Assembly (NCBI RefSeq): GCF_007197755.1
Contig: NZ_CP041636.1
Span: 2,020,001 to 2,084,000, forward strand
Direction of reading: 5' to 3'
DNA from: Ferrovibrio terrae
GTDB lineage: Bacteria > Pseudomonadota > Alphaproteobacteria > Ferrovibrionales > Ferrovibrionaceae
DNA: 64,000 nt
The notes beneath the pieces were generated by a model. That model worked only from the letters and a program-made list of their open reading frames with translations, made no database searches and was not told the origin of the DNA. Below, piece by piece: positions 6,493 through 57,492 of the stretch. Each line of letters opens with the position of its first letter. Within the stretch, counting starts at the first letter, position 1. A program made the position numbers and the translations under genes.

Positions 6493-6927
6493 ATGCCCCG
6501 CAGGCAAAGTCCTGTCGATGCGGCCGGGCTGGCTGGTGAGCCACCGGGTTCTCCAGCCATGGCTGCCTATGCGGAGCATCTGCAGGCGGGCCACTTCAGG
6601 ATTCAGCACTGCGTAGATTGCCGCCGGCACGTGTTCTATCCGCGCGTGATCTGCCCGCATTGCGCCTCGGACCGCCTGCGCTGGGTCGAACCCGCTGGCA
6701 CCGGAACGGTCTATTCCACCACGGTGGTCCGTCGCTCAGACGACAAGGGCGGCCCCTATAATGTCGCGCTGATCGATCTGGATGAAGGTGTGCGGCTCAT
6801 GTCGCGGGTCGAGCGACTGGCCCCTGAAGCCGTGCATATCGGCATGCGCGTCCGGGTCCATGTCGCCCAGTTGAATGGCGTGGCGGCGCCAGTTTTTGCT
6901 CCGATTCCCGAAGGCGACCCGGCATGA
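6493..6927 (+). CDS. Zn-ribbon / OB-fold (DUF35) acyl-CoA-associated protein
   Basis: 144 residues. HCVDCRRHVFYPRVICPHC gives the CxxC...CxxC zinc ribbon, followed by an OB fold (WVEPAGTGTVYSTTVV, IDLDEGVRLMSRVE). DUF35 proteins pair with thiolase-like or hydratase partners and bind acyl-CoA. The ATG at 6493 is preferred over an upstream in-frame start because a strong AGGAGG lies at 6483-6488 with 4-base spacing. The stop overlaps the thiolase start by four bases, matching the usual obligate pair. Confidence 0.9.
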   Translation: MPRRQSPVDAAGLAGEPPGSPAMAAYAEHLQAGHFRIQHCVDCRRHVFYPRVICPHCASDRLRWVEPAGTGTVYSTTVVRRSDDKGGPYNVALIDLDEGVRLMSRVERLAPEAVHIGMRVRVHVAQLNGVAAPVFAPIPEGDPA

Positions 6928-8078: not shown

Positions 8079-8121
8079 CCCCGGGTGGACTTCAATGCAG
8101 AAAAATCCAAGGGAGAGAAGC

Positions 8122-9102
8122 ATGATGAAGACGGGTGTATTGGCAGGTGCCGTGTTGGCCATGGGATTGCTCGCAGTCTCGGGTGCGCAGGCGCAGAACT
8201 ATCCGACCCGACCGGTCAAGATGATCGTCGGTTTCAGCGCTGGCGGCACCATCGACGTTGTCGGTCGTATCATCGGCGAGCATCTGTCCTCAAAAATGGG
8301 CCAGCCCTTCGTAGTGGAGAACCGCACTGGCGCCAACGGCATGATCGCGGCTGAAATCGTCGCGAAGGCCGATCCGGATGGCTACAACATCTTTGTCAGC
8401 AACAGTAGCACGATCACGCTGAATCCGACGCTGTTCAAGGACATCCGCTACAATCCGGAGCGCGATTTCGCTCCGATCACCACGGCGATCTCCGTGCCGC
8501 TGATCCTCGCGGTCAATCCGGAGCACCCGGAAGGCGGCAAGCTCAAGACGCTCAAGGATCTGATCGACCTTGCCAAGTCCAAGCCGAACACGATCCCTTA
8601 CGGTTCGGCCGGTAACGGCAACATCACCCAGCTGGCCTTTGAACTGCTGAGCGACCGTGCCGGGGTGAAGATGGTTCATGTACCGTATCGTGGTGCCGCG
8701 GCCGCCCAGGTTGCAGTGTTGAGCAAGGAAGTCGTTGCCGTCTTCGATACCATGAGCGCAGTGCCGCATGTAAAGGCGGGTAAGCTGCGTGCGCTGGCGG
8801 TATCTTCTGCCCAGCGTGTGCCGGAGCTGCCGGATGTTCCGACAGTGGCCGAACTCGGCTTCCCCGGCTTCGATGTCAGCTTCTGGGTTGGCTTCTTCGT
8901 ACCCAAAGCAACGCCAGCCGCCATCGTCGATCGGCTCAACAAGGAAATCCATGCGGCAACGGCTGTGCCGGAAGTGAGAGCAAAGCTGCTGGCCCAGGGC
9001 GGCATCCTGACCCAGTCGCCGACAGACTTCGCGAAGAAGATCACCGAAGAGACCAAGATTCTCGCCGACGTGGTAAAGAAGAACAATATCCAGGCCGACT
9101 GA
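8122..9102 (+). CDS. Tripartite tricarboxylate transporter (Bug family) solute-binding protein
   Basis: 326 residues. A cleavable signal peptide ([19 protein letters not shown]) is followed by [23 protein letters not shown], which is the Bug-family ligand loop, then [20 protein letters not shown] and a C-terminal [15 protein letters not shown]. These periplasmic proteins bind small carboxylates for TctAB permeases; no tctA/tctB lies in the window, which is common for Bug proteins. The start at 8122 has GGGAGA nearby, with a second ATG at 8125 also possible. It lies 43 bases after the thiolase gene and ends in a clear terminator, so it closes the CoA-thioester operon and probably delivers its substrate. 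Confidence 0.93.
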
Positions 9103-9123
9103 TCCGGATCAGATCGAACGGGG

Positions 9124-9152
9124 AAATCGGCGCCCACAGGCGCCGATTTTTT
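9124..9152 (+). terminator. Rho-independent terminator
   Basis: An 11-bp perfect stem (9124-9134 with 9139-9149), a CACA loop and a run of six T (9147-9152). It follows the Bug-type binding protein and separates it from etfBA. Confidence 0.92.
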
Positions 9153-9203
9153 CATCCAAAGAACAAGAATGTCCTCAGATCAAGGAAGAGAGAGTGTCGT
9201 CTT

Positions 9204-9953
9204 ATGAAGGTACTGGTCGCGGTCAAGCGCGTGGTGGACTACAACGTCAAGATCCGCGTGAAGGCGGACAAGACGGGTGTCGATCTCGCCAACGTGAAGA
9301 TGTCGATGAATCCGTTCGACGAGATTGCCGTCGAGGAAGCCGTGCGCCTGAAAGAGGCCGGCACGGCCACGGAAGTGATCGCCGTCTCGATCGGCACCGC
9401 GCAGTCGCAGGAGACGCTGCGCACGGCGCTGGCGATGGGCGCCGACCGCGGCATCCTGGTCAAGACCGACGCAGACGTGCAGCCGCTGGCGGTGGCCAAG
9501 ATCCTGGCGAAGATCGCGGAGGCTGAAGCCCCGCAGCTGGTGATCGTGGGCAAGCAGGCGATTGACGACGACAGCAACCAGACCGGCCAGATGATGGCCG
9601 CCCTGCTGGGCTGGGCCCAGGGCACGTTTGCCAACAAGGCAGCCCTTGCCGACGGCAAGGCGACCGTGGTGCGCGAAGTGGACGGCGGTCTTGAGACGGT
9701 GGAGCTGAAACTGCCCGCCGTGGTCACCACCGACCTGCGCCTGAACGAGCCGCGCTATGCGTCGCTGCCCAATATCATGAAGGCGAAGAAGAAGCCCATT
9801 GAAGAGAAGACACCCGAGGATTACGGCGTCGATATCGCGCCCAGGCTGAAGACGCTGTCGGTGGACGAACCGCCCAAGCGCAAGGCCGGCGTCAAGGTGC
9901 CGGACGTTGCCACCCTGGTGCAGAAGCTGAAGACCGAAGCGGGAGTGATCTGA
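9204..9953 (+). CDS. etfB: Electron transfer flavoprotein beta subunit
   Basis: 249 residues, standard EtfB/FixA length. It begins [20 protein letters not shown]; the ETF-beta signature lies in [26 protein letters not shown] and AMP-binding residues in [16 protein letters not shown]. With EtfA it carries electrons from acyl-CoA dehydrogenases to ETF-quinone oxidoreductase. It is followed one base later by etfA and preceded by a terminator, so etfBA is its own transcription unit. Confidence 0.97.
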
Positions 9954-9954
9954 G

Positions 9955-10887
9955 ATGAGCGTGCTGGTAATCGCTGAACACGATAACGCCTCGCTCAAGG
10001 CCGCGACGCTCAATGCCGTGACGGCCGCCCAGGCCATCGACGCCGATGTGCATGTGCTGGTCGCCGGTGAAAAGGCCGATGCGGCCGCCGCGGCTGCCGC
10101 CAAGGTCGCCGGTGTGGCCAGGGTGATCCATGTCGAGGCCGCGCATTACGCGCATGGCCTGGCCGAGCCTCTCGCCGTGCTGATCGCCGAGCTGGGCAAG
10201 GGCTATGGCGCCATCGTCGCGCCGGAGACCACGTCCGGCAAGAACGTGATGCCGCGCGTGGCAGCTCTGCTCGATGTGATGCAGATTTCCGGCATCGTCG
10301 AGGTGAAGTCGGCCGATACCTTCGTGCGTCCGATCTATGCCGGCAACGCCATGGCGACCGTGCAGTCGGGCGACAAGATCAAGGTCGTCACCGTGCGCAC
10401 CACCGGTTTTGCCGCCGCCGCCGCTGACGGCGGCTCGGCCAGCGTCGAGAAGGGCACGGCCGCCAGCGATCCGGGCGTGTCGACGTTCATCGGCCAGGAG
10501 CTGCAGAAGTCGGACCGTCCGGAGCTGACGGCGGCCAAGATCATCGTCTCGGGTGGTCGCGGCATGGGCTCGGGCGAGAATTTCAAGCTGATCGAGGCCG
10601 TGGCCGACAAGCTGGGTGCCGCGGTCGGCGCCAGCCGCGCCGCCGTGGACGCCGGCTTCGTGCCGAACGACTACCAGGTCGGCCAGACCGGCAAGATCGT
10701 CGCGCCGCAGCTCTATGTCGCGGTCGGCATCTCGGGTGCGATCCAGCATCTCGCCGGCATGAAGGACTCGAAAGTCATCGTCGCCATCAACAAGGACGAA
10801 GAGGCGCCGATCTTCCAGGTTGCCGATTACGGCCTGGTCGGCGATCTGTTCAAGATCCTCCCCGAACTCGAAGCCGAATTGAAATAG
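9955..10887 (+). CDS. etfA: Electron transfer flavoprotein alpha subunit
   Basis: 310 residues. The C-terminal FAD domain carries [26 protein letters not shown] and [24 protein letters not shown], both diagnostic for EtfA/FixB. It begins one base after etfB. Housekeeping ETF for acyl-CoA oxidation, and the natural partner of the dehydrogenase at 3133-4290. Ends with a terminator at 10970. Confidence 0.97.
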
Positions 10888-10969
10888 GGATCAAATTCCG
10901 GCGGCGCTCGCCTCCCTGTGTCTGCGCTCCGGATGGCTTGGATCGGATATCCGATTAAAAGTCCGACTT

Positions 10970-10996
10970 GCCGGGGCTATCAGCCCCGGCATTTTT
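10970..10996 (+). terminator. Rho-independent terminator of etfBA
   Basis: Perfect 9-bp stem GCCGGGGCT / AGCCCCGGC (10970-10978 and 10982-10990) with a 3-base loop, followed by ATTTTTC. Confidence 0.9.
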
Positions 10997-11199
10997 CGGA
11001 TGCCGACTTGACGCCGTTTTCGTCGAAGGAAACGCCAGAAAACGGCCAAATTATTGATGAGCTTTTTGGGCCATTCCCGGCATGTTTTGGAACTGGCCTA
11101 TCCTAAAATTCTCCTGAAGTATTTGTATCAAGTCCACCGAACAGACCGCTCTGTATAGTGTGGAACTTGGCTCTCGATGGCACGCCTCGGGAGAGCCTT

Positions 11200-11216
11200 A
11201 TTCCGCATTGCGGAAT
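11200..11216. promoter_or_regulatory. IclR-type operator, perfect palindrome
   Basis: ATTCCGCATTGCGGAAT is a perfect 8-1-8 inverted repeat about 105 bases before the BKACE start. Near-identical copies flank the local iclR gene (16612-16628, 16675-16691) and precede the bicupin gene (17524-17540). Confidence 0.75.
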
Positions 11217-11321
11217 GGCAATACAGCGCACGCGCTTGGAACCCTTCTTCTCTATAGAACCGGGTCAGAGATTGCCGTTGGATGACGGCAACGGAAGAGC
11301 CTAGGGGAGCGGGGCCGGAGG

Positions 11322-12200
11322 ATGCAATCACGCGTCATCATCACTTGTGCTGTCACCGGCAACCAGACCACGCCGGAGATGACGCCGCATCTGCCCATCA
11401 CACCGGCGCAGATCGCCGAGGCCGCCTTGGGCGCGGCCGAGGCTGGCGCTGCCGCGGTACATATCCATGTGCGTGATCCGCAGAGCGGAAAACCGTCCAT
11501 GGAGATCGACCATTATCGCGATGCGGTCGAACGCATCCGGGCCAAGAACCAGCAGTTGATCATCAATCTGACCACCGGACCGGGCGGCCGTTTCGTGCCC
11601 AGCCCTGATGATCCAAAAGTGGCTGCGCCGGGGACAACCTTGATGCGGCCGGAAGATCGCGTCACCCACATCGCGCTGCTGAAGCCCGACATTGCCACGC
11701 TCGATCTCAACACCATGAATTCGGGCAAGCAGGTGGTGATCAATACGCCGGAGAATGTCCGCCGCATGGCCGCAGTGATCAACGCGGCCGGCGTGAAGCC
11801 GGAGATAGAGCTGTTCGATTCCGGCGATATCGCACTCTGCCGCGACCTGATCGCCGATGGCACGCTGAAAGGTCCGCTCCTCTGCTCGGTCGTGATGGGC
11901 GTGAAATACGGTTTCCAGCCATCGCCCGAGACTGTGCTCTATGCGCGCAGCCTGCTGCCGCCCGGCACGGCCTGGACCGCGTTTGGCACCGGCCGCTCCT
12001 GTTTTCCGATGGTGGCGCAGTCTTATCTGGCCGGTGGACATGTCCGCGTTGGCCTGGAGGACGCCATCTTTCTGGAAAAAGGCGTGCTGGCAGAAACCAA
12101 TGCCGCCATGGTCGCCAAGGCGCGCAACATTGTCGAATCGGTTGGCGGTGAGATCGCGACGGCCCAGCAGGCCCGCGAGATACTGTCCCTGGCGGTATGA
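11322..12200 (+). CDS. BKACE family (DUF849) beta-keto acid cleavage enzyme
   Basis: 292 residues. HIHVRDP at 47-53 supplies the zinc-binding histidines (H47, H49) typical of 3-keto-5-aminohexanoate cleavage enzyme and its relatives. These enzymes use acetyl-CoA to split a beta-keto acid into acetoacetate and a new acyl-CoA. LTTGPGGRFVPSPDD, IATLDLNTMNSG and VGLEDAIFLEKG match the family core. The true substrate within BKACE cannot be told from sequence alone. First gene of an operon with a Bug-type binding protein, SDR and aldehyde dehydrogenase, under the palindrome at 11200-11216. Confidence 0.9.
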   Translation: MQSRVIITCAVTGNQTTPEMTPHLPITPAQIAEAALGAAEAGAAAVHIHVRDPQSGKPSMEIDHYRDAVERIRAKNQQLIINLTTGPGGRFVPSPDDPKVAAPGTTLMRPEDRVTHIALLKPDIATLDLNTMNSGKQVVINTPENVRRMAAVINAAGVKPEIELFDSGDIALCRDLIADGTLKGPLLCSVVMGVKYGFQPSPETVLYARSLLPPGTAWTAFGTGRSCFPMVAQSYLAGGHVRVGLEDAIFLEKGVLAETNAAMVAKARNIVESVGGEIATAQQAREILSLAV

Positions 12201-12259
12201 CCATGACTGATACCAACGAAAAACATTCGCGGAAAAAACCAGCATCACGCGGAGGAAAC

Positions 12260-13228
12260 ATGCGTCTGCTCTCACTCGCCCTGTTCGGCCTTGCTCTCCT
12301 GCTTTCACCCGGTCATGACGCTGCGGCGCAGGCCTGGCCGGATCGGCCGGTCACCATGATCGTGCCATTCCCGGCCGGCTCTGCTGTCGACTTCCTGGCG
12401 CGCGCCACCGCATCAGAACTCAGCGACAGGCTCGGTAAACCCTTCATCGTCGAGAACCGGACTGGTGCAGGCGGCAATATCGGTGGCGCCGCTGTCGCCA
12501 AGGCCAAGCCGGATGGCTACACGCTGCTGTTCGGAACCCCGTCACCGATCGCGATGAACAAGCTGATGTACAAGGGTCTGACCTATGACTCCGAAAAGGA
12601 TTTCATCCCGGTCGCGCTGGTCGCCAAGTCGCCGCTGATGATCACCACGCGGCTCGACTTTCCGGCCAAGACCTTTGCCGAGCTGATCGACTACGCCAAG
12701 AAAAATCCGGGCAAGGTGACTGTCGGCAATCCAGGCAACGGCACGCTCGGCCATATCACGGCTGAGCTGGTCCAGCAGTTCACTGGCACGAAGATGACTG
12801 CTGTGGCCTATCGCGGCACCGTACCGCTGATGACCGATCTGCTGGGCGGGCAGGTCGATGTTTCGGTCGACTTCATGCCGACCTATGTGCCGCAAGTGAA
12901 GGAGAACAAGCTGAAGGCGCTGGCGGTGACGACGAGTACGCGCAGCAAATCCTTGCCTGATGTGCCGACAGTACAGGAGGTCGGCTTCAAGGGCTTCGAA
13001 GCCAGCGCCTGGTACGCCATGGTTGCACCGACCGGAACGCCGCCGGAGATCATCGGCAGAATCAACAAGATTGTGAATGACTTCTTGAAAACCGACAAGA
13101 CCAAGGCTCTGCTGGAGCAGAATACGCTCGAAGGCATCGGCGGATCGCCGGAAGACCTGAAAGCCTTCATTGCCGCCGAACTGAAAAAGTGGAAACCGGT
13201 GATCGAGGAAGCCAAGATCGAGATGTAA
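12260..13228 (+). CDS. Tripartite tricarboxylate transporter (Bug family) solute-binding protein
   Basis: 322 residues. The signal peptide MRLLSLALFGLALLLSPG...AAA is followed by WPDRPVTMIVPFPAGSAVDFLAR, VENRTGAGGN and DGYTLLFGTPSP, and closes with LPDVPTVQEVGFKGF, the full Bug pattern. The start is placed at 12260 because GGAGGA (12251-12256) lies 3 bases upstream and a signal peptide begins there. It is the second orphan Bug protein in the window; its placement inside the BKACE operon suggests it binds that pathway's carboxylate substrate. Confidence 0.93.
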   Translation: MRLLSLALFGLALLLSPGHDAAAQAWPDRPVTMIVPFPAGSAVDFLARATASELSDRLGKPFIVENRTGAGGNIGGAAVAKAKPDGYTLLFGTPSPIAMNKLMYKGLTYDSEKDFIPVALVAKSPLMITTRLDFPAKTFAELIDYAKKNPGKVTVGNPGNGTLGHITAELVQQFTGTKMTAVAYRGTVPLMTDLLGGQVDVSVDFMPTYVPQVKENKLKALAVTTSTRSKSLPDVPTVQEVGFKGFEASAWYAMVAPTGTPPEIIGRINKIVNDFLKTDKTKALLEQNTLEGIGGSPEDLKAFIAAELKKWKPVIEEAKIEM

Positions 13229-44733: not shown

Positions 44734-47130
44734 TCATTTTCTCCCGGCTTGGACTTTGCCCAATGCCAGCAATATCGATTCGGGTGTGAACGGCTGCGCC
44801 GTGAGACTGACATTCAGCGGCCGCAGCGCGTCGTTGATCGCGTTCATCACCGCGGCCGGTGCGCCAGCCGTGCCGGCTTCGCCCGCGCCTTTGGCGCCAA
44901 GTTCGGAACTGGCGGTCGGCGAGACGACATGGCCCACAATGATATCCGGCATTTCGCCGGCCATCGGCACCAGGTAGTCGATCATCGAACCGTTCACCAG
45001 CTGGCCGCGATCGTCGTAGATGCAATGCTCGAACAATGCGCCGCCCAGTCCTTGCACGACGCCGCCGCGAATCTGTTCGTCGACCAGCTGCGGATTTATG
45101 ATGGTGCCGCAATCCTCGACGCACCAATGCTTCAGCAGGGTGACGAAACCGGTCTCGGTATCGACCTCCAGATATGAACCCTGGATGCCGTTGGTGAAGA
45201 CGAAGGGATAGTCTTTCTGCACGTAATGGCGCGTCACCACGAATTCGGGCTGCAGGCCTTTTGGCAAGGTATCCGGCCGGAAGTAGACGACGCGGCCAAT
45301 CTCTTCCAGCGGGAGTCGTTCGTTGCCGGTGTCGGCATCGACCACGGTGCCGTTGCGGATGTCGAGGGTCTCCGGCGCGGCCTGCAGCATGGCGGCGGCA
45401 ACGGCGAGGATATTCTGCCGCAGCGCCTTGCCGGCCTGCAGCGCTGCTTCGCCGCCGATGCCGGCGCCGCGCGAGGCCCAGGTACCGCCGCCATAGGGCG
45501 TGGCATCGGTATCGCCAGTGATGACGCGGACTTTTTCCATGGTGACACCGACAGCGGTCGCCGCGATCTGCGCGATGATCGCCTCGGTGCCCTGGCCCTG
45601 CTCGGTCACGCCGGTGGCGCAGATGATGGTGCCGGTCGGATCGAGCCGTATGGTGCAACCATCCTGCGACGAGATGCGTGCGCCACCGATGCCGTAGAAG
45701 GCCGACGATGGGTTGGTGACTTCGATGAAGCTGGCCAGGCCGATGCCGCGATAGACGCCACACTTGCGCAGCTCGGCCTGCTCGGCGCGTAAGCCGTCGT
45801 AATCCATCAGCGCCAGTAATTTGTCGAGCGAGGCGTGATGCGACAGGCTTTCATAGGGCAGGCCAGCAAGGCCAGTGTAAGGATAGGCGTCATCGGGGAT
45901 CAGGTTACGCCGGCGGATCTCGGCAGGGTCGATGCCGAGTTTGCGCGCGGCCAGATCGACCAGGCCTTCGGTGACCGCGCAGGCCACCGGATGTCCGACC
46001 GCGCGATACTGGCAGGTCACGTTCTTGTTCTGGAACACCACTTCGGTGGAAGCGCGATAGGCTTTGTGCTTGTAGGGGCCGCCGACCAGGTTGACCACCT
46101 GATTGGCCTCGACCGCGCTGGTGCGCGGATAGACCGAGTAGGGCCCGATGGCCGTGCGGTCGTCGATCTCGAAGGCCAGGATCTCGCCATCCGTGTTGAC
46201 CGCGATCCTGCCCTTGATGCGGTGATCGCGGGCATGGATGTCAGTGACAAAAGATTCGAGCCGATCGGCGATGAATTTCACCGGCCGCCGCAGCAGAACC
46301 GACAGGGCCGCCGTGGCCATTTCGTCGGGATAGATATGAACCTTGATGCCAAACGAGCCGCCGACATCCTTGCAGATCACCCGCACATCGGATTCGGTCA
46401 GGTTCAGATGCTTGGCCAGCAGGTTCTGGATCATGTGCGGCGCCTGCGTCGCCTGATAGGCGACCAGCTTGCCCTCGGCCGGCTGGTAGTCGGCCAGCAC
46501 GGCGCGTGGTTCCAGGCAGACGCCGGTATGGCGGCCGGTATGATACACTTCCTCGAAGACATGATCGGCGGCGGCGAAAGCAGCATCGACCTCGCCGGTC
46601 ACCAGTTCGCGCCTGAAGGCGAGATTGTCGCCCAGTTCAGGGTGGATTACCGGTGTGCTGGCGTCCAGCGCGGCTTCCATATCGACGACGGCGGGCAGTT
46701 CTTCCCACTCGACCACCACCATTTCGGCGGCATCTTCGGCTTCGGCGCGGGTCTCTGCCACCACGGCGGCCACGGCCTCGCCCTGCCAGCAGGCGCGGTC
46801 GATGGCAAGCGCATGCTGCGGCGCGGATTTCAGCCCCTTCATATGTGTCAGCACACCGACCCAGGGCGTGATCACCTTCGCAAGCTCGGGTCCGGTGACG
46901 ATGGCGATGACGCCGGGCATCTCCTGCGCGGCTGCGCGGTCGATGCCGATGATTTTGGCATGCGCATGCGGGCTGCGCACGAAGACCACATGCGTCATGC
47001 GGGGCAGGGTGATGTCATCAACGTAAGTCCCGCGCCCCTGCAGCAGCTTTTTGGCGTTCGGGCGCGGCACGGTGCGCCCGATATAGCTGTTCGGGCGGTC
47101 GAAGAAGGAGACGGGCGGAGCGCTGCTCAT
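44734..47130 (-). CDS. Molybdenum hydroxylase large subunit (xanthine dehydrogenase family, CoxL-like)
   Basis: 798 residues from the ATG at 47130. KLLQGRGTYVDDI, VGGSFGIK (256-263) for the molybdopterin site, and the catalytic Glu751 in AKGAGEAGT are present, so it should be active. The active-site loop reads QYRAVGHP (374-381), neither the AYRCSFR of true CO dehydrogenase nor the common AYRGAGR, so the substrate is not CO. It hydroxylates a ring carbon next to nitrogen or an aldehyde, using water. It overlaps the iron-sulfur subunit gene by four bases. Confidence 0.92.
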   Translation of the reverse strand: MSSAPPVSFFDRPNSYIGRTVPRPNAKKLLQGRGTYVDDITLPRMTHVVFVRSPHAHAKIIGIDRAAAQEMPGVIAIVTGPELAKVITPWVGVLTHMKGLKSAPQHALAIDRACWQGEAVAAVVAETRAEAEDAAEMVVVEWEELPAVVDMEAALDASTPVIHPELGDNLAFRRELVTGEVDAAFAAADHVFEEVYHTGRHTGVCLEPRAVLADYQPAEGKLVAYQATQAPHMIQNLLAKHLNLTESDVRVICKDVGGSFGIKVHIYPDEMATAALSVLLRRPVKFIADRLESFVTDIHARDHRIKGRIAVNTDGEILAFEIDDRTAIGPYSVYPRTSAVEANQVVNLVGGPYKHKAYRASTEVVFQNKNVTCQYRAVGHPVACAVTEGLVDLAARKLGIDPAEIRRRNLIPDDAYPYTGLAGLPYESLSHHASLDKLLALMDYDGLRAEQAELRKCGVYRGIGLASFIEVTNPSSAFYGIGGARISSQDGCTIRLDPTGTIICATGVTEQGQGTEAIIAQIAATAVGVTMEKVRVITGDTDATPYGGGTWASRGAGIGGEAALQAGKALRQNILAVAAAMLQAAPETLDIRNGTVVDADTGNERLPLEEIGRVVYFRPDTLPKGLQPEFVVTRHYVQKDYPFVFTNGIQGSYLEVDTETGFVTLLKHWCVEDCGTIINPQLVDEQIRGGVVQGLGGALFEHCIYDDRGQLVNGSMIDYLVPMAGEMPDIIVGHVVSPTASSELGAKGAGEAGTAGAPAAVMNAINDALRPLNVSLTAQPFTPESILLALGKVQAGRK

Positions 47131-47621
47131 GCGCCGCTCCCGCCGGCAGCTTTCCGGCGTGCGTCGAGCACGGTCGCGATGGCATCGACAATCGCGTGAT
47201 AACCGGTGCAGCGGCAGTAATTGCCGGAAATATGCGCGCGGATTTCCTCGCGATCGGCATTGGGATGCTGCTCGACCAATTCGGCGGCGGTCGCCAGCAT
47301 GCCCGGCGTGCAGAAGCCGCATTGCAGGGCGTTATGCTTGTGAAAGGCGTCCTGCAGATCGGCAATGGCACCGCTGTCGCTCAGGCCCTCGATGGTATCA
47401 ACCGACGCGCCGTCGGCCTGCACGGCCAGCATCAGGCAGCCGCGCACGGCGGTGCCGTTGACCTGGATGGTGCAGGCGCCGCAGACACCGTGCTCGCAGC
47501 CGAGATGCGAGCCGGTCAGGCTTAGTTCATTGCGCAGGAAATCGATCAGATGTTGGCGCGCGGATACGCGGCGCCGCAGCTTCTGTCCGTTCACGATCAC
47601 GTTGATATCGTGCTGCTCCAT
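47127..47621 (-). CDS. Molybdenum hydroxylase [2Fe-2S] small subunit (CoxS-like)
   Basis: 164 residues with both clusters complete: the ferredoxin-type Cys42, 47, 50 and 62 (GCEHGVCGACT) and the hydroxylase-type Cys101, 104, 136 and 138 (CGFCTPG, NYCRCTGY). It passes electrons from molybdenum to FAD. The order FAD-FeS-Mo subunit is that of coxMSL operons. Confidence 0.95.
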   Translation of the reverse strand: MEQHDINVIVNGQKLRRRVSARQHLIDFLRNELSLTGSHLGCEHGVCGACTIQVNGTAVRGCLMLAVQADGASVDTIEGLSDSGAIADLQDAFHKHNALQCGFCTPGMLATAAELVEQHPNADREEIRAHISGNYCRCTGYHAIVDAIATVLDARRKAAGGSGA

Positions 47622-47629
47622 GGGACTCT

Positions 47630-48472
47630 CTAGGCTGAGGTAAGCAGGGACGGCAGGGCGCGCTGCAGCAGCACTCCGGCCAGATGCAGTTTGGTCTGCG
47701 GCCCTGCATTCAGGTCGCCGCTGGGCTCAAGATCTTCGGCCAGGCAGGCGCAGGCGGCTTCGATTCCGGCCGCGCCATCTTTGACAAGGCAGGCTGCGGC
47801 GCGGTCGGCGGCCACGGGGCGATCCGCCACGCCGAAATAGGCGAGTCGCAGCGTGCCGGGCTGCGGTGATGCCGCCGCCAGGCCGATCATCGCGTAGTCA
47901 CCGTGGCGTCGCGCCAGTTCCGAAAACGCAAAGCGATGACTGGCGGTTGCCTTCGGAAACTCGATGGCTGCCAGGATTTCGCCCGGGCGCAGATCGGTCT
48001 CGAACAGGCCGTGGAAAAAGCCCGCGGCCTTGACGCGGCGCTCAGCGCTGCGGCCCCGGAGGATGAAGGTCGCCTCCAGCGCGGTTGCGCAAGCCGGCAG
48101 TTCGGCTGCCGGATCGGCAAAAGCAAGGCTGCCGCCGATGGTGCCGCGGTTGCGGATGGCGGGGTGCGCGATATGCGGCATTGCCGCTGCCACCAGCGGT
48201 ACGTATCTGGAAATGATGGGAGATTTCTCCAGCGCCACATGCGTCGCCAGCGCGCCGACCACGATGGTCTCGGCGGTCTCCCGGATGCCCTGCAGATCGG
48301 CGATGGCATTGATATCGATCAGGAGTGTCGGACGGGACAGGCGCAGATTGAGCGACGGGATCAGGCTCTGGCCGCCGGCCAGGATTTTTGCCTCGTCGCC
48401 ATGCTGATCCAGCAGATCAAAGACCTGCCCGAGCTCGCGCGCCTTCACATAGCCGAACGGCGGTGCCTTCAC
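47630..48472 (-). CDS. Molybdenum hydroxylase FAD-binding subunit (CoxM-like)
   Basis: 280 residues. AKILAGGQSLIPSLNLRLSRPTLLIDINAI and AHPAIRNRGTIGGSLAFADPAAELPA are the FAD-binding motifs of the CoxM/xanthine dehydrogenase middle domain. First gene of the minus-strand operon that runs to coxG at 37808; its promoter faces the tetR-like gene. Confidence 0.93.
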   Translation of the reverse strand: MKAPPFGYVKARELGQVFDLLDQHGDEAKILAGGQSLIPSLNLRLSRPTLLIDINAIADLQGIRETAETIVVGALATHVALEKSPIISRYVPLVAAAMPHIAHPAIRNRGTIGGSLAFADPAAELPACATALEATFILRGRSAERRVKAAGFFHGLFETDLRPGEILAAIEFPKATASHRFAFSELARRHGDYAMIGLAAASPQPGTLRLAYFGVADRPVAADRAAACLVKDGAAGIEAACACLAEDLEPSGDLNAGPQTKLHLAGVLLQRALPSLLTSA

Positions 48473-48592: not shown

Positions 48593-48618
48593 CAACGATT
48601 GTGAAGGTGCGCTGCAAA

Positions 48619-49314
48619 ATGACGACGGTAAACAAACGAAAAAAACCGAAGGCTGGAACAGCCCCCAAGCGTCATCGTCTGCTCCCGGATGAGCGCGAGA
48701 AGCAGATTGTTCTCGGCGCGATCCGGTTTTTCGCGGAAGTCGGCTTCGACGGGCAGACGCGCGAATTGGCCAAGCGGCTGGGCATCACGCAGCCACTGCT
48801 GTTCCGCTATTTCCCGACCAAGCAGGACCTGGTCGATCGCGTCTATAAGGAGATCTACCTCAACCGGTGGAATCCGGAATGGCAGGACTGGATCGAGGAT
48901 CGCAGCACGCCTGTAGCGGTGCGGCTGAAACGGTTCTACACGGAATACTATCCGACCATCGTGAATCACGACTGGATGCGCATCTTCTTCCAGGCCGGCA
49001 TGCGCAATGTCGGCTTCAACCAGCGCTATCTGCGGCTGGTGCGCGAACGGATCCTGCTGGTGCTGTGCGGCGAGGTCCGCCACGAATGTGGGTTGCCGTC
49101 TGTTGCCACGGTTCCGGTCAGTCCCGCCGAGCTGGAGCTGTACTGGGGTCTGCACGGCTCGATCGTCTATGACGGCATCCGCCAGTATATTTACGGAACG
49201 GCGGTGCCGCCCGAGCCAACGGCGGTCACCAATGCAAAGATCGATATTTTCATGGCCGGGCTCAAACCGGCCGTAGCCCGGCTGATCAAACGGCAGGCCG
49301 GCGATGGCGAGTAG
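48619..49314 (+). CDS. TetR family transcriptional regulator
   Basis: 231 residues. The N-terminal helix-turn-helix reads TRELAKRLGITQPLLFRYFPTKQDLVDRVY; the rest is a ligand-binding domain without a named family. The ATG at 48619 is chosen with GAAGGTG at 48603-48609; a GTG at 48601 is also in frame. It probably represses the divergent hydroxylase-transport operon through the palindrome at 48577-48592 and responds to its substrate. Confidence 0.9.
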   Translation: MTTVNKRKKPKAGTAPKRHRLLPDEREKQIVLGAIRFFAEVGFDGQTRELAKRLGITQPLLFRYFPTKQDLVDRVYKEIYLNRWNPEWQDWIEDRSTPVAVRLKRFYTEYYPTIVNHDWMRIFFQAGMRNVGFNQRYLRLVRERILLVLCGEVRHECGLPSVATVPVSPAELELYWGLHGSIVYDGIRQYIYGTAVPPEPTAVTNAKIDIFMAGLKPAVARLIKRQAGDGE

Positions 49315-49487: not shown

Positions 49488-50459
49488 TTAGGAGGACCTG
49501 CTCCTGGTCACGTCCGACGGCCGGATGCCGAAGCGGCGGCGGAACATCGTGCTGAAATGCGAGGAGCTGCTGAAGCCGACGCGATAGGCGATCTCAGTGA
49601 GTGAGCGGGCATTGTGGTCGGATCGCAGCAGCATGTCATGGCCCAGCTCGATCCGGCGGTTCCAGATCCAGTTCGACACCGACTGGCCCTCGAGGCGGAA
49701 GAGGGCATGCAGGTAGCGCAGCGAAACGCCATTGCTCTTGGCGATCAGCTCCGGACTCAGCGCCGGTTCGCAGAGGTGATCCTCGATCCAGGCCTTGACC
49801 GACCGCAGGCGTGCCTTCTGTACCACCTGCTCCGTCATCGGTTCATCCCGATGGGCGGAATCGAAGGCTAGGGCCAGGACGTCCATCAGCTCTTCGCCGA
49901 GGCGGGCCCGAATTGCCGTGTCCAGATTGGTGCCCTGGCTGGCGAGCATCGAGCAGAATTCGACAGCGATACGGCCCAGTCCGCGCCCGGTGCTCATGGT
50001 CGCTGCCAGCGGCGCCTGGCCGCCGGCAAAGCGGTTGCCGAAGGTCTCGCGGGGAATCTCAAGATAATAGGACCGCACCTTGCCCATGCATTGCAGGTCG
50101 TAGGGCTCGGAGGCGCAGAACAGGGCGCCCACGCCCGCCGAAGTGTGGAACGAGTCGCCGGACTGTACGACGTTGACGCTGCCGTGCTGGATGAACTGGA
50201 CGTAGTAGCAATCCTTGTCCAGCTTCGACAGGTGCGACTTCCGCCTGGAGATCAGCTGCTGCGACACCAGGCATTCCGTCATGGCGACATTGCCGAACTG
50301 GGTTTCGCGGATGAAGCCGTCGTAATTGTCCGGATCGTCCGCCTTGACGTTGACGTGAACGTAAACGTCGCAAATGGCATCGCGCCAGGCGGCATAGCGT
50401 TTGGCACGATCCAATGCTTCGGTCGAGAATACCAAATCCATGCTGTCCTCCCACGCCAT
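49488..50459 (-). CDS. AraC family transcriptional regulator
   Basis: 323 residues. The N-terminal part is an AraC-binding-like domain of the NphR/FeaR type (RETQFGNVAMTECLVS, CYYVQFIQHGSVNVVQSGDSF). The C-terminal double helix-turn-helix contains VSLRYLHALFRLEGQSVSNWI and SLTEIAYRVGFSSSSHFSTMFRRRFGIRPSD. A second ATG six codons in (50441) is possible. It is divergent from the sugar-type ABC operon and the likely activator of it. Confidence 0.92.
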   Translation of the reverse strand: MAWEDSMDLVFSTEALDRAKRYAAWRDAICDVYVHVNVKADDPDNYDGFIRETQFGNVAMTECLVSQQLISRRKSHLSKLDKDCYYVQFIQHGSVNVVQSGDSFHTSAGVGALFCASEPYDLQCMGKVRSYYLEIPRETFGNRFAGGQAPLAATMSTGRGLGRIAVEFCSMLASQGTNLDTAIRARLGEELMDVLALAFDSAHRDEPMTEQVVQKARLRSVKAWIEDHLCEPALSPELIAKSNGVSLRYLHALFRLEGQSVSNWIWNRRIELGHDMLLRSDHNARSLTEIAYRVGFSSSSHFSTMFRRRFGIRPSDVTRSRSS

Positions 50460-50711
50460 CCAATGGACAGCGGCCTGCCGTGCAACGCCGGCGGCCGCGT
50501 TTAGTCTCGTTCGAACTTGAACGGCGGAACGTCAGCATTCTTTGCCAATCCCGAATATCGGGCAACAGGAAAACGCTTCCGCCCATTGCGAGTGCACGCA
50601 CAGGCAAGATTCTTGCGCATATGGAAAAGAAGTACCGCGCTCCGAGGTGTAGGAAAGCTCCCGGCAGCCTGTTCTCCGGGCTGCCCAAATCAGTTGGGAG
50701 GCAAACAACTT

Positions 50712-51686
50712 ATGCTCCGCGCGGCGAATCTGACCCAGGAGCGCATCGTGCTGGTGCTGGCGCTTGTCCTTACGGCAGCCTTCGCCATCTCCCTGCCGGG
50801 TTTCCTGACATCTCAAAATCTCCTCGCGCTGCTGCGCAGCGTCTCGGTACTCGGCGTGCTGGGGATCGCAATGGCGCTGGTGGTGATCGGGCGTGGCATC
50901 GACCTGTCGCTGGTCGCCGTGATGGCGGTGTCGCTGGCCTGGACGCTGAATCTCGTAACAGGCGGCATGCCGCTTGGCATCGCGCTGCTGCTGGGACTGG
51001 GTTTCTGCTTGCTCTCCGGGCTGATTACCGGCTTCCTGATTGCCTATGTCGAAATCCCGGCGATCTTTGCCACGCTGGCGATGGGCACTTTCATCTACGG
51101 CTTCGGCCGCTATTTTCTGATCACGCTCGATGTCGTCTATCTGCCGGATGCCGCGCGTTCCATTGTTTGGATTGGCAGCGGTTCCTTCATGGGAATTCCG
51201 GTGCCGGTGCTGGTCTTCGGCGGCGTCTGCCTGCTCGGCGCGCTGTTCCTGCGCTATGTCAAATCCGGCCGCTTCATCCGCGCTATCGGTGACAATCCGC
51301 TGGCCGCAAGGATCACCGGCATTCCGGTGCGTCCCGTCATTGTCATGCAGTATGCGCTGTCCGGTCTGATCGGCTTCGTCGCCGGTCTGGTGACCGCCAC
51401 ATCGGTGGCCAGCATGAACATCCGGGTCGCCAACTCCACCTTCGTCTATGACGTGATCCTCGTCGTGGTGCTTGGCGGCATCGGTCTGTCTGGCGGCAAG
51501 GGGGGCGTGCGCAATGTCATCGTCGGCACGCTGCTGATCGGCGTCCTGATCAACGGCATGACGATCATGGATATCCAGTACACGGTCCAGAACGTCATCA
51601 AGAGCCTGATTCTGCTCGCGGCCATCGTCGCCGACACCATCATAAACCCCCGGGACGAACAGACCGCGCAACAGGGCGATATCTAG
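50712..51686 (+). CDS. CUT2-type ABC transporter permease (RbsC-like)
   Basis: 324 residues, about ten helices. VVIGRGIDLSLVAVMAVS is the CUT2 permease signature; AIGDNPLAARITGIPV and a VLGGIGLSGGKGG loop follow. GGGAGG at 50696-50701 supports the ATG at 50712. It is the first of two permeases in this operon; the second is fused to another domain. Confidence 0.92.
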   Translation: MLRAANLTQERIVLVLALVLTAAFAISLPGFLTSQNLLALLRSVSVLGVLGIAMALVVIGRGIDLSLVAVMAVSLAWTLNLVTGGMPLGIALLLGLGFCLLSGLITGFLIAYVEIPAIFATLAMGTFIYGFGRYFLITLDVVYLPDAARSIVWIGSGSFMGIPVPVLVFGGVCLLGALFLRYVKSGRFIRAIGDNPLAARITGIPVRPVIVMQYALSGLIGFVAGLVTATSVASMNIRVANSTFVYDVILVVVLGGIGLSGGKGGVRNVIVGTLLIGVLINGMTIMDIQYTVQNVIKSLILLAAIVADTIINPRDEQTAQQGDI

Positions 51687-51719: not shown

Positions 51720-52727
51720 ATGAAGGGTATTACAGCGCTGCTGGCGGCAGCCGCCATCCTGTCGGCCAGTTCCCTGGCCAGCACCTCGGCCACTGCGCAG
51801 GGGATCGACGATCCCGCGCGGGCGTCGCATTACGCAGCCTTCAAGGGGAAGCGGGTCGTATTCGTGCCGATTGCGATGGGCTTCGATCTCACAGAAGGCT
51901 GGGCGGCGGGCATCCGCAACGCGCTCGAGCCGCTCGGCGTGAAGTTCGATATCCGCGATCCCAACTGGAACACCGATGCCGGTGCGCAGGCGATTACCTC
52001 GCTGATCGCGGAAAAGCCGGATGCCATCGTGGTGCACAATCCGGATGTGCAGTCCTATGCCCGCCTGCTCAAGCGCGCGGAAGAGGCCGGCATCTATGTT
52101 GTCCAGGTCAATATGCGCTCCAGCTACTCGACCGACGGTTTCGCCGGGGCCGACTATGTCGGCATGGGCGAGCGCATCGCCAATCGCCTGATCGAGAAAT
52201 GCAGTCCGGCCAATGGCGGCAACGGCAAGATCGCCATCATGCAGGGCGTGTTGACCGCGGCGGCCAGCGCCTATCAGATGAAGGGCTTGGACAATGTACT
52301 GTCCAAGAACCCGCAGATGAAGGTCGTTGCCAACCAGGCGGCCGACTGGGACGCGACCAAGGCTCGGAGCATCATGGCCACCGTGCTGCAGCAGCATCCC
52401 GATCTCTGTGGCGGTGTCGGATTCTGGGATGTGATGGATGTCGGTACCGGGGCCGCGATCCGCGAATCCGGCAAGAAGGTGCACTGGATCACCCAGGGCG
52501 GTGGCAACCAGGCCGCCTGTGACAACCTGAGCAAGGATGTCTACAGCGAAGTGGTGAGCTACGACGTGCCGGCCCAGGCGCGCGACATCGCCAACATCAT
52601 TCAGTCGCTGTTCCAGAACAAGCCCAAGCCGGGTGCGACGAAGACGACACTGTTCTCACCGCTCACCTTCATCACCAAGGAGAGCATGAAACCTGGTGCC
52701 TGCTGGACGCTCGAGACCAAGAAGTAG
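51720..52727 (+). CDS. CUT2-type ABC transporter substrate-binding protein
   Basis: 335 residues with a signal peptide ending SATAQ. RVVFVPIAMGFDLTEGWAAGIRNALEPLGVKFDIRDPNWNTDAGAQAITSLIAEKPDAIVVHNPD is the Peripla_BP_4 ribose-binding-type opening. Relatives bind sugars, polyols or autoinducers; a non-sugar ligand is possible given the CoA-ligase neighbour. It ends just before a strong hairpin. Confidence 0.92.
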   Translation: MKGITALLAAAAILSASSLASTSATAQGIDDPARASHYAAFKGKRVVFVPIAMGFDLTEGWAAGIRNALEPLGVKFDIRDPNWNTDAGAQAITSLIAEKPDAIVVHNPDVQSYARLLKRAEEAGIYVVQVNMRSSYSTDGFAGADYVGMGERIANRLIEKCSPANGGNGKIAIMQGVLTAAASAYQMKGLDNVLSKNPQMKVVANQAADWDATKARSIMATVLQQHPDLCGGVGFWDVMDVGTGAAIRESGKKVHWITQGGGNQAACDNLSKDVYSEVVSYDVPAQARDIANIIQSLFQNKPKPGATKTTLFSPLTFITKESMKPGACWTLETKK

Positions 52728-52769: not shown

Positions 52770-54914
52770 ATGATTCCATATCCAGGTCCCCAGATGCCCA
52801 TCGCAGATACCATTGCCTATTGGCGCTACAGACTGGTGCCAGATCATATCGTTGGCGAAATTCTCGCCAAAAGGTGGATCGACAACGCCATCCCCTTTAC
52901 CATCCTGGTCACAGTGCTGGCCGGCTTTGGATATGCCATGCCGGATTTCCTCAGCCTCGGCAGCATGACGGCGCTGACCCGGCAGCTCGGCGAATTCGGC
53001 ATTGTGGTCATCGCCATGACCATCGTCATGCTGGCTGGCGGGATAGATCTCAGCGTCGGCTCAGTGCTGGCGCTGGCGAATATCACTGCGCTGGCGATGC
53101 TGAACCTCTTCCAGTTGCCGGTTGGGCTGGCCTTCACGATCACACTGGCGGTCGGCGCCACGGTCGGCCTGGTGAATGGCCTGCTGATTGGTTATCTGCG
53201 TCTGCGCGCTTTCCTCACCACGCTGGTCACACTGATCATCGTGCGTTCCATCGTCGATATGCTGCTGCTGAAATATGCCGTGCAGATTTCGGCTGGTTTC
53301 GTTGATTCTGCCGTCTGGGATTTCATCGGGGACGGCAAGATCGCGCAGGTGCCGTTCAGTTTCGTGCTGTTTCTGGTCATTGCCATCGTCGTGCATCTGG
53401 TGTTCAGCCGCACCCGGCCGGGCTGGCATCTGATGGCGGTGGGCGGTTCGCGCCGCTCGGCTCATAATGTGGGCATACACGTGCGCCGCACCGTCTGCCT
53501 CACTTATGTCATCTCGGGCACACTCGCCGCACTGGCGGGTTTCCTGTTCGCCGCGCGCCTCGGCGGCGCTGGATCGGATGTCGGCATCGGTCTCGAGATC
53601 ACGGTACTGACGGCAGCCGTGCTCGGCGGCAACAGTCTCGGCGGGGGGCGCGGCTCGGCGGCCAAGGCCGTGCTCGGTGCGATCACCGTCATGATTATCA
53701 TCAACGGACTGGTGCGCGTGGGCGCCGGCAGCGGTGCGAATTCCCTGATCCTCGGCCTCATCCTGCTGGCTGCGGTGGCGATCGACGTTCGCTGGCTGAA
53801 GAACCGGCACAAGGTGCTGGCCAAGGTCTATGTCTCGCCAGCCTTTCGCAGCCTGCCGGCGCCGCCCGGCACTGAGCGGGGCTCGTCTTCGCCCTATGCG
53901 CTGAACGACCGCCTGCGTGATGTGTCGTTGATTGGCCTGAACCAGGTCGATGGGCCCGAGGACGTGATCCTGGATGAGAACGATCACATCTACACTGGTA
54001 CCCGTACCGGCGACATCGTACGGTTCTTTGCGCCCGACTACACGCGGCAGGAAGTCTTCGCCCATGTCGGCGGCCGCCCGCTCGGCATGGCCTTTGCCCG
54101 GGACGGTGCGCTGATTTGCTGCATCGGTGGCATGGGTCTGTATCGCATTGGCATGGACCGGCAGATCGCCAAGCTGACCGACGAAACCAACCGCACGCCC
54201 TTCTCGATCATCGACGATGCGCGTCTGCGGCTGGCGGACGATCTGGACATCGCGCCGGATGGCCGCATCTTCTTCAGCGAAGCGACCACCCGCTACGAGA
54301 TGCATGAATGGCCGGTCGATGGTCTCGAATCGCGCGGCAATGGCCGCATCATCTGCTATGACCCGCGGACGAACACGACGCGGACGGTGCTGCGGAACCT
54401 GACCTTCCCCAATGGCATCTGCATGACCCACGACGGCGAATCCTTCCTCTTCGCCGAGACCTGGAGCTGCAGCGTCAGCCGGTATTATTTCGGCGGTCCC
54501 AGAGCGGGAACCGTCGAGACGGTGATTCCGGACCTGCCTGGTCATCCCGACAACATCAACCGGTCCTCGGATGGCACCTACTGGCTGGCGCTGGTCGGCG
54601 TCCGGACGCCGAGCATGGACCTCGCACTGAAAATGCCCGGCTTCCGACGCCGGATGGCGCGTCGCGTGGCGCCCGATGAATGGCTGTTCCCCAATATCAA
54701 TACCGGCTGCATTGTCCGGTTCGATGAAAGCGGTCGCATCCTCGATGTGCTCTGGGATCTCGGCGGCAAGAACCACCCGATGATCACCTCGATGCGCGAG
54801 CACCGGGGGCATCTCTATATCGGCGGCATCTCCAACAACCGGATCGGCAGGCTGTCGCTGGCCGGTGCCGATCCGAACTGGACCGGGCCGCAGTCCTACT
54901 GGGGCAGCAAATGA
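52770..54914 (+). CDS. CUT2 ABC permease fused to a C-terminal beta-propeller (SMP-30/strictosidine synthase-like)
   Basis: 714 residues in one frame. Residues about 38-342 are a complete CUT2 permease (MLAGGIDLSVGSVLALAN at 88-105, VLGGNSLGGGRGS near 284). A short linker (343-380) leads to a beta-propeller at about 385-710: LNQVDGPEDVILDENDHIYTGTRTGDIVRF, LDIAPDGRIFFSEAT, FPNGICMTHDGESFLFAETW, and LPGHPDNINRSSDGTYWLALVG. These strands match SMP-30/gluconolactonase and strictosidine-synthase-like lactonases. A permease with ten helices would place the propeller in the cytoplasm. It may process a lactone as it enters (inference). Overlaps the next propeller gene by 4 bases. Confidence 0.85.
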   Translation: MIPYPGPQMPIADTIAYWRYRLVPDHIVGEILAKRWIDNAIPFTILVTVLAGFGYAMPDFLSLGSMTALTRQLGEFGIVVIAMTIVMLAGGIDLSVGSVLALANITALAMLNLFQLPVGLAFTITLAVGATVGLVNGLLIGYLRLRAFLTTLVTLIIVRSIVDMLLLKYAVQISAGFVDSAVWDFIGDGKIAQVPFSFVLFLVIAIVVHLVFSRTRPGWHLMAVGGSRRSAHNVGIHVRRTVCLTYVISGTLAALAGFLFAARLGGAGSDVGIGLEITVLTAAVLGGNSLGGGRGSAAKAVLGAITVMIIINGLVRVGAGSGANSLILGLILLAAVAIDVRWLKNRHKVLAKVYVSPAFRSLPAPPGTERGSSSPYALNDRLRDVSLIGLNQVDGPEDVILDENDHIYTGTRTGDIVRFFAPDYTRQEVFAHVGGRPLGMAFARDGALICCIGGMGLYRIGMDRQIAKLTDETNRTPFSIIDDARLRLADDLDIAPDGRIFFSEATTRYEMHEWPVDGLESRGNGRIICYDPRTNTTRTVLRNLTFPNGICMTHDGESFLFAETWSCSVSRYYFGGPRAGTVETVIPDLPGHPDNINRSSDGTYWLALVGVRTPSMDLALKMPGFRRRMARRVAPDEWLFPNINTGCIVRFDESGRILDVLWDLGGKNHPMITSMREHRGHLYIGGISNNRIGRLSLAGADPNWTGPQSYWGSK

Positions 54915-55981
54915 GCTTCCTTTTTACGCGGGTTCTGGATTCCTTTCTCGGTCGCGGCGAGAGCGCCATCACCGTGCCGGCCCTGGATGGCGCGCTGCGG
55001 CCGAACCGGCGGCTTGATGATGCAGCGGAACGCATTCCGGTTCACGCGCCGGGCGGCATCGCGTCCGGTCGTGATGGCCTGGTGGTCAGTTCCGGCAGCG
55101 AACTGCATCTTCTGGGTGGTGGTTCCGGTAAAATCCTGCACCACGCCGCGACAGAGATCAGTTGCTTGGTGGCAGTCGCCGGTGGAATCGCTTTTGGTTG
55201 CGATGATGGCAGTCTTGCAATCATCGGCGGCGAATTCGATGGGGTCGCTTTCCTGCCGCAGGAGGGTGCGCGCTGCCCCACGGCGATGGCCGGGGAGGGT
55301 GACATCCTCTATGTCAGTCATGGTTCGGCGCAGAACCCGCCGTCTGCCTGGCAGCGCGATCTGATGGAACGGAATGCTTCCGGATCGATCTGGCGGCTCG
55401 ACCTGCGCAGTCGCAAACAGCAGCGCATCGCCGCCGGACTCGCGTATCCCGCCGGATTGGTGGTATCAGGCGATGGATTGATTGTCGCGGAGAGCTGGAA
55501 ACACCGGATCGTCCTGCTCGACAAAACAACCGGCATGCTGCGGCGGCAGATTCAGGGTGACCTGCCCGGTTATCCCGGCCATATCGGCCGCGGGCCGCAT
55601 GTGGGTTATGTCATGACCATGTTCGCGCCACGCAACCAGCTGGTGGAGTTCATCCTGCGCGAGGACCAATACCGATGCCGGATGATGGCGGAGGTCGATC
55701 CGCGCTACTGGGTCGCGCCCACATATCGCAGCGGCCGATCCTACTACGAGCCGCTACAGGGCGGCGGCGTCAAGCAGCTCGGCATCCTGAAGCCCTGGGC
55801 ACCGACATTGTCCTTCGGCATGGTTGCCCTGCTGGATCAGGACTGCCTGCCTGTCGACAGCTTCCAGAGCCGCGCCGATGGCGCGACGCATGGCATTACT
55901 GGCGCAGTCGTTCATGACGGAGCGCTGTATGTGGCATCAAGAGGCGACGATGTCGTTGTCCGGCTCGATCTCGGTTCGTAA
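54911..55981 (+). CDS. Beta-propeller protein, SMP-30/gluconolactonase-like
   Basis: 356 residues, no signal peptide, hence cytoplasmic. The blade motifs VHAPGGIASGRDGLVVSSG, LAYPAGLVVSGDGLIVAESWKHRI and LPGYPGHIGRGPHVGYVMTM correspond one for one with the fused propeller (FPNGICMTHDGESFLFAETW, LPGHPDNINRS), but identity is low. It overlaps the fusion gene by 4 bases, so the transporter module makes two different propellers. Likely a lactonase or ligand-binding propeller. Confidence 0.75.
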   Translation: MSFLFTRVLDSFLGRGESAITVPALDGALRPNRRLDDAAERIPVHAPGGIASGRDGLVVSSGSELHLLGGGSGKILHHAATEISCLVAVAGGIAFGCDDGSLAIIGGEFDGVAFLPQEGARCPTAMAGEGDILYVSHGSAQNPPSAWQRDLMERNASGSIWRLDLRSRKQQRIAAGLAYPAGLVVSGDGLIVAESWKHRIVLLDKTTGMLRRQIQGDLPGYPGHIGRGPHVGYVMTMFAPRNQLVEFILREDQYRCRMMAEVDPRYWVAPTYRSGRSYYEPLQGGGVKQLGILKPWAPTLSFGMVALLDQDCLPVDSFQSRADGATHGITGAVVHDGALYVASRGDDVVVRLDLGS

Positions 55982-55995
55982 AGGCAGGCCCGGTC

Positions 55996-57492
<1,497 letters not shown>

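Follow-up and report, generated by a model that had tools for sequence, protein, structure and literature searches.

Can an importer carry, on its own channel subunit, an enzyme that changes the cargo? The ATP-binding cassette (ABC) importers known to us generally move their cargo chemically unchanged. The question is raised by a gene of Ferrovibrio terrae (assembly GCF_007197755.1) at positions 52,770 to 54,914, plus strand, of a 64,000-nucleotide stretch of contig NZ_CP041636.1 (positions 2,020,001 to 2,084,000 of the forward strand), here called the window. Its product joins a CUT2-type permease to a six-bladed propeller of the strictosidine-synthase-like (SSL) kind in one chain. The fusion is no artefact, and a missed stop or frameshift is ruled out. 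On balance, its sequence suggests that it serves a CUT2-type importer as second permease subunit and that its cytoplasmic C-terminal part is a metal-dependent hydrolase, most likely a lactonase.

A permease and a propeller in one reading frame

The ATG start, the open frame and the strand of the gene were all exact, and it encodes a single unbroken chain of 714 amino acids (aa). Four Pfam domains each scored above their curated cut-offs: BPD_transp_2 (residues 68-335; 117.3 bits, cut-off 26.8), SSL_N (375-419), Str_synth (490-575; 73.6 bits, cut-off 25) and SGL (425-610; 51.2 bits). A preliminary description of the window had claimed a complete CUT2 permease running without a break into a full propeller, and the open frame and the Pfam domains bear this out. 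It had also given a linker of 38 residues, which was close: measured between the final membrane helix and SSL_N (residues 340-375), the linker is 36 aa long in 65 of 82 aligned fused sequences, 34 in 16 and 35 in one. For the propeller, which it had called "lactonase-like", strictosidine-synthase-like models outscore SMP-30/SGL (Str_synth against SGL, scores above). The 82 rows leave out a 580-aa truncated second copy in locus L018; set A1 takes one sequence per 85% identity, 38 of the other 81 fused rows, and skips L034_24 and L032_10 for length.

The same fusion, with both halves in one frame, was found at 80 loci of other records (80 of the 318 relatives found; 56-92% identity; one, L032, is cut by a contig end at residue 661). 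It was present in the order, class, phylum and plasmid sets, so that it is not unique to one assembly, and this recurrence excluded the missed stop or frameshift between the domains that the preliminary description had named as one possible refutation. Among the matches listed, the closest relatives were Ferrovibrio records. Within the order, 5 of 17 other genomes carried the fusion (6 of 18 counting the window's), one of them as a partial match. In the class it occurred in at least 8 of 384 other genomes (at least 9 of 385 counting the window's; one partial), a lower bound given that two candidates were scored per genome. In the window's genus it was found in 3 of 10 genomes, not all of them complete, a patchy distribution. 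Two loci from metagenome-assembled genomes placed in other phyla, L030 (Deltaproteobacteria) and L032 (Terriglobia), nest among alphaproteobacterial fusions in the tree, by horizontal transfer or as mis-binned contigs.

Searching 398 genomes of the phylum with the propeller only gave 44 matches, namely the window's own, 16 close, 23 distant and 4 weak ones. Every one of the 16 close matches (57-69% identity) lay in an open frame of at least 707 aa and none was split. The 4 weak matches (26-30%) were second propellers adjoining fusions. The 23 distant matches (29-42%) were free-standing SSL proteins, none of them fused to a permease in the 8-13.5 kb regions read, and six re-read in wider regions had no permease in frame. 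The split versions that had been called for were thus sought in the phylum and class searches, and no close propeller relative was found apart from a permease.

Among plasmids, 15 records cover at least 80% of the fusion query. The matches are named SMP-30/gluconolactonase in 10 cases, ABC transporter permease only in 1, and ribose permease plus hypothetical protein in 1; 3 have no annotation. On the RefSeq plasmid of Shinella sp. HZN7 the fusion is annotated as a single coding sequence (CDS). An apparent split version in this plasmid match (H15; two BLAST pieces, three features) was ruled out, there being one CDS. No description of the fusion, or of a mevalonate ABC importer, was found in the open-access literature (titles and abstract starts). 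The component families are known; what did not turn up there is their combination, an importer permease that includes a hydrolase-like propeller and has a dead twin of it beside it.

Mean counts of lysine plus arginine per sequence (82 rows) were 5.1 at the N-terminus, 2.0 in residues 143-147, 4.4 in 214-238 and 5.2 at the C-terminus, with 0-0.3 in six other loops and 1.0 in 286-296. This positive-inside pattern predicts that both chain ends, and so the propeller, are cytoplasmic, in support of the side first proposed. By analogy, loop 214-238 may be the ATPase-contact region. Within the chain, conservation is highest in the propeller (mean column identity 0.77, permease core 0.68).

Putative metal site and a second propeller

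Foldseek neighbours of the propeller included rice TGW6 (the best match among solved structures), strictosidine synthases, lactonase RPA3624, PON1, DFPase and a xylonolactonase. E values of about 1e-15 to 1e-9 for the strictosidine synthases, RPA3624, PON1 and DFPase identify a six-bladed fold. Sequence profiles agreed with these families, with weak scores for lactonases. Five residues of the propeller, E397, D491, N548, D594 and N595, were identical in 82/82 fused sequences, many of which are close relatives and so do not make 82 independent cases. Assigned by spacing and alignment, they are putative ligands in the Glu, Asn/Asp, Asn, Asp(-Asn) pattern of PON/DFPase/SMP-30/SSL hydrolases, and we take SMP-30 to be one of the calcium-dependent six-bladed propeller hydrolases. 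Their spacing (94, 57, 46, 1) resembles that of PON1, whose calcium ligands are presumably E53, N168, N224, D269 and N270. Calcium-dependent lactonases and phosphotriesterases of this fold (PON1, DFPase, RPA3624, xylonolactonase) share fold, ligand pattern and spacing with the fused propeller, but they are 11-16% identical to it in the Foldseek rows listed. To our knowledge, none is part of a transporter.

PMC12362111 describes a natural fusion of a Cu/Zn superoxide dismutase with a propeller lactonase in Deinococcus radiodurans, with calcium ligands Glu200, Asn290, Asn339 and Asp381. The spacing of these (90-49-42) is similar to 94-57-46 in the fused propeller; here too a propeller lactonase is joined to another protein, but the partner is the dismutase, not a permease (PMC12362111). 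In the F. terrae protein and its relatives, the invariant putative ligands favour a hydrolase over a sensor.

Strictosidine synthases and SSL proteins such as TGW6 share their Pfam domains (Str_synth, SSL_N) with the fused propeller and provide its best fold and sequence matches; it differs in being fused to an importer, in its predicted cytoplasmic side and in having Thr673 at the position of the catalytic glutamate, which we take to be Glu309 of the Rauvolfia enzyme. That position aligned with T673 in a weak ungapped HMMER stretch (4.5 and ~11 bits), and Thr was found in 81/81 sequences with a residue there. Strictosidine synthase activity was therefore rejected.

The preliminary description had further pictured an operon with a normal partner permease and a heterodimeric channel with one propeller. 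The partner was confirmed (BPD_transp_2, 72.6 bits) and is 28% identical to the fused permease half; the operon suggests that the two form a heterodimeric channel. The single propeller probably does not hold: the gene that follows, and overlaps the fusion, codes for another propeller whose metal ligands are lost. By hhalign this protein is paralogous to the fused propeller (99.9%, E 5e-32, 20% identity), and its model is confident (pLDDT, the predicted local distance difference test, 89), with strictosidine synthases as top structural matches. In 15 sampled second propellers, the D491 position was Ala in 15/15, N548, D594 and N595 were kept in none, and position 397 was Glu in 1 and Asp in 10. 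The start codon overlapped the fusion stop in 69 of 73 readable loci (ATGA in 51, GTGA in 18). The 73 are from a total of 81; L017, L032, L045, L063, L074, L076, L081 and L082 were left out owing to contig-end cuts or a start rule taking another frame, which is no evidence of absence. With its ligands lost, the second propeller is unsupported as a second enzyme. Since an overlapping gene encodes a propeller without ligands, the complex is probably made with two propellers, one live and one dead.

The operon and its neighbourhoods

The features of the operon are collected in Table 1. For the partner permease, the mechanically called open reading frame starts at 50517, and the Pfam and NCBIfam scans were done on 50634-51686.

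Table 1. Features of the fusion operon in the window of F. terrae.
Feature	Position	Strand	Evidence
AraC-type regulator, divergent	49488..50459	-	Pfam; 20/21 loci of ligase-class operon
Partner CUT2-type permease without propeller	50712..51686	+	Pfam; start inferred from length of relatives
Periplasmic substrate-binding protein, Peripla_BP_4 (144.4 bits)	51720..52727	+	Pfam/NCBIfam
Fusion: CUT2-type permease (~34-340), linker (340-375), strictosidine-synthase-like six-bladed propeller (375-714)	52770..54914	+	Pfam, alignment, AlphaFold2, Foldseek
Second propeller, paralogue of the fused one, putative pseudo-enzyme; ATG overlaps fusion stop (ATGA)	54911..55981	+	Alignment, hhalign
ABC ATPase, two ABC_tran stretches (188.4 bits), nearest AraG/XylG/RbsA models	55996..57492	+	Pfam/NCBIfam
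Acyl-coenzyme A (CoA) ligase fused to enoyl-CoA hydratase domain, 885 residues	57529..60186	+	Pfam/NCBIfam

The importer has the marks of the CUT2 type in Pfam: BPD_transp_2 permeases, an ATPase with two ABC domains and a Peripla_BP_4 binding protein. CUT2-type sugar importers (RbsC, AraH and YtfT permeases; AraG/RbsA ATPases) are alike in permease family, two-domain ATPase, Peripla_BP_4 protein and operon layout; what sets the present importer apart is the propeller at the C-terminus of one permease and the gene for another propeller behind it. No NCBIfam equivalog cut-off for a known CUT2 specificity (ribose, arabinose, allose, galactofuranose, autoinducer-2) was reached: the best permease score was 139.9 against 398 bits, that of the ATPase 468.4 against 689 and that of the binding protein 63.3 against 335. 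Because all scores were far below the cut-offs, a known sugar importer was rejected. The adjoining ligase-hydratase gene is a possible next metabolic step in this operon class, and for the window suggests a carboxylic acid that undergoes CoA activation. Upstream of the operon lie a molybdenum-hydroxylase-like set (large, iron-sulphur and FAD subunits, judged by eye; 44734-48472, minus strand) and, beside it, a Pfam-checked TetR regulator (48601-49314, plus strand).

Neighbourhood classes were assigned at 80 loci by tblastn with class markers, counted anywhere in the locus. These gave a ligase class (21 loci), a 3-hydroxy-3-methylglutaryl (HMG) class (9), a glutamine-synthetase-like class (8), an aminotransferase/quinone-oxidoreductase class (9) and 2 loci with an AhpD-like gene only. 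In the ligase class, AraC occurred in 20 loci and the hydratase in 14; in the remaining loci the hydratase part was undetected by the marker, or a separate enoyl-CoA hydratase (ECH) gene was present. The glutamine-synthetase-like loci (L046, L057, L061, L062, L071, L075, L078, L093) hold an N-formylglutamate amidohydrolase and an isochorismatase-type hydrolase, often with an RpiR regulator and an AhpD-like gene, and an amine or amide may be involved there. Mapped onto a quick tree of the fusion, the classes require 13 changes; with shuffled classes the figure is 43.9.

The HMG class forms one branch (Shimodaira-Hasegawa-like approximate likelihood ratio test, 100). Its 9 loci were selected by HMG-CoA reductase or lyase; they hold a degradative reductase in 9/9, a CaiB-type CoA transferase in 9/9, ECH in 9/9, HMG-CoA lyase in 8/9 and MocR in 7/9. 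In L033 (Mesorhizobium norvegicum), the genes on one strand either overlap or lie no more than 68 bases apart: HMG-CoA reductase, CoA transferase, ECH, permease, binding protein, fusion, second propeller, ATPase and HMG-CoA lyase; the reductase scored 443.8 bits on TIGR00532 (cut-off 259.95) and the lyase 396 (246) in NCBIfam. The lyase of L039 and the reductase of L040 lie on the opposite strand. A tenth case is the Shinella sp. HZN7 plasmid, where the operon follows immediately on a degradative HMG-CoA reductase gene (order: MocR-like regulator, HMG-CoA reductase, permease, binding protein, fusion, "strictosidine synthase", which is the second propeller, and ATPase). From these neighbourhoods, the HMG clade is suggested to import mevalonolactone and open its ring. 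In genome G354 (contig 25, ~37-56 kb; L138, L139), three fusion operons lie within ~18 kb; one of them adjoins HMG-CoA reductase, and two are separated by an HMG-CoA lyase gene.

Degradative HMG-CoA reductase was found in 12 of 385 genomes of the taxonomic class, and the regions around 10 of the 12 matches were compared. Transport genes were the fusion operon in 1, which has two further fusion operons within ~18 kb, components of tripartite ATP-independent periplasmic (TRAP) transporters in 5 and a Peripla_BP_6 binding protein in 3, the window's genome included; in the tenth (G018), no transporter was recognised among the 12 neighbouring proteins scanned. The loci with other transport genes resemble the HMG clade in the degradative reductase and, in some, in a MocR-type regulator, CoA transferase and ECH; they differ in having TRAP or Peripla_BP_6 components and in the lack of an SSL propeller within the regions read, where SSL profiles matched in the fusion-bearing genome only. 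In these regions, then, the propeller accompanies the sugar-type importer, not HMG-CoA reductase as such. This is as expected if TRAP and the other transporters take the acid and the CUT2-type importer takes a neutral lactone that needs opening.

In the window's own genome, the HMG-CoA reductase lies ~256 kb from the fusion, together with another transport protein (Peripla_BP_6). Its locus (L136, G000:C1:1806000-1825000, at 6119-12278) is an HMG-class-like set of MocR, HMG-CoA reductase, CoA transferase and ECH with the Peripla_BP_6 binding protein. Mevalonate as the window's cargo is unsupported, the reductase set being elsewhere with that protein. A lead to deoxyribonate and deoxyribonolactone was also dropped: in PMC6365646 the transporters concerned belong to the major facilitator superfamily and the lactonase is separate, and its main text has no "ABC transporter", "permease" or "strictosidine".

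One of the 23 free-standing SSL genes, in genome G708 (L148, contig 127, 1-8000; 2203-7165), lies divergently beside a CUT2-type operon, 72 bases stop-to-stop. The operon consists of Peripla_BP_4, a two-domain ATPase and BPD_transp_2, followed by an alcohol-dehydrogenase-like gene. The protein resembles the fused propeller in having all three Pfam domains next to CUT2-type genes; it differs in being encoded by a gene of its own, and is 34% identical to the fused propeller. No second propeller was found there, and it is the sole case among the 23. This arrangement is a possible unfused functional counterpart of the fusion system.

A proposed ring-opening importer and its alternatives

The fusion, operon, its conservation, retention and loss of ligands, neighbourhoods and topology signal described above were computed; metal binding, hydrolysis, its coupling to transport, stoichiometry and docking are what we infer from them. 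The binding protein would hand the heterodimeric channel a small ring compound without charge, either a lactone or a related cyclic ester. The fused propeller would open the ring as the molecule exits the channel. The charged hydroxy acid so formed would be trapped inside, where a CoA ligase or CoA transferase would act on it first and enzymes of the beta-oxidation type next. The separate second propeller, translationally coupled to the fusion, would probably dock as a structural or regulatory partner. In the HMG clade, the cargo would be mevalonolactone. Taken as a whole, this transport-coupled ring-opening importer, with an active lactonase on one channel half, a coupled dead copy capping the complex, hydrolysis at the exit trapping the acid, and different lactones used by different clades, one of them mevalonolactone, is a tentative proposal.

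Several results weigh against it. No HMG-CoA genes stand beside the window's own operon. The reductase data fit equally well if the propeller simply belongs to the importer type, and several of the reductase loci with other transport genes lack the CoA-transferase/ECH set, so that their pathway may differ. No CUT2 permease was detected in the 8-13.5 kb regions of 22 of the 23 free-standing SSL genes; SSL proteins as such are therefore not tied to CUT2 importers. A domain that binds a ligand without catalysis could also account for the conserved residues. Of the 80 loci, 31 match no marker set, partly on short contigs, and a link to lactones is not obvious in the glutamine-synthetase-like and aminotransferase classes. 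In the AlphaFold2 model of the fusion (mean pLDDT 81), a predicted template modelling score of 0.57 makes the mutual orientation of the domains unreliable.

C-terminal regulatory domains act on some other ABC importers. The propeller could likewise be a ligand-binding regulatory or gating domain that responds in the cytoplasm to the imported compound, or to what is made from it, by inhibiting or stimulating the importer, with the dead propeller in the same assembly. Three things speak for such a role: in the reductase regions read, the propeller occurs only with the CUT2-type importer; its translationally coupled partner has no metal site; and the linker length is nearly fixed. A mere sensor, however, needs no full metal site, yet the putative ligands of the hydrolase family are invariant (82/82) and the free-standing SSL relatives mostly retain them. 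We regard a regulatory propeller as rather unlikely.

Less likely still is a true metal-dependent hydrolase that is no lactonase and cleaves some other bond (e.g. an ester, lactam or glycosyl ester), varying by clade. Such variation would suit neighbourhoods that change from CoA ligase-hydratase to HMG-CoA, to glutamine-synthetase-like with N-formylglutamate amidohydrolase and isochorismatase, and to aminotransferase with quinone oxidoreductase, and TGW6, the best solved-structure match, reportedly acts on a sugar conjugate of auxin; against this, the HMG clade offers a natural lactone, mevalonolactone, and CoA-activating enzymes recur in several settings. A sequencing or assembly artefact, or a one-off joining of two unrelated genes, has only the odd architecture in its favour and a negligible probability, given one frame at 80 loci of other records, a window genome in one contig (4.26 Mb, one copy of the fusion), a single CDS in the RefSeq plasmid and a conserved linker length; it was dropped on the recurrence across the order, class, phylum and plasmid searches.

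If the ring-opening importer is real, a hydrolase placed in the channel subunit of a widespread importer, together with its coupled dead twin, would allow metabolic channelling at the membrane to be tested directly. Proteins now annotated as "SMP-30/gluconolactonase" or "ABC transporter permease" would gain a function, and a probable route by which Mesorhizobium and its relatives take up mevalonolactone would be named.

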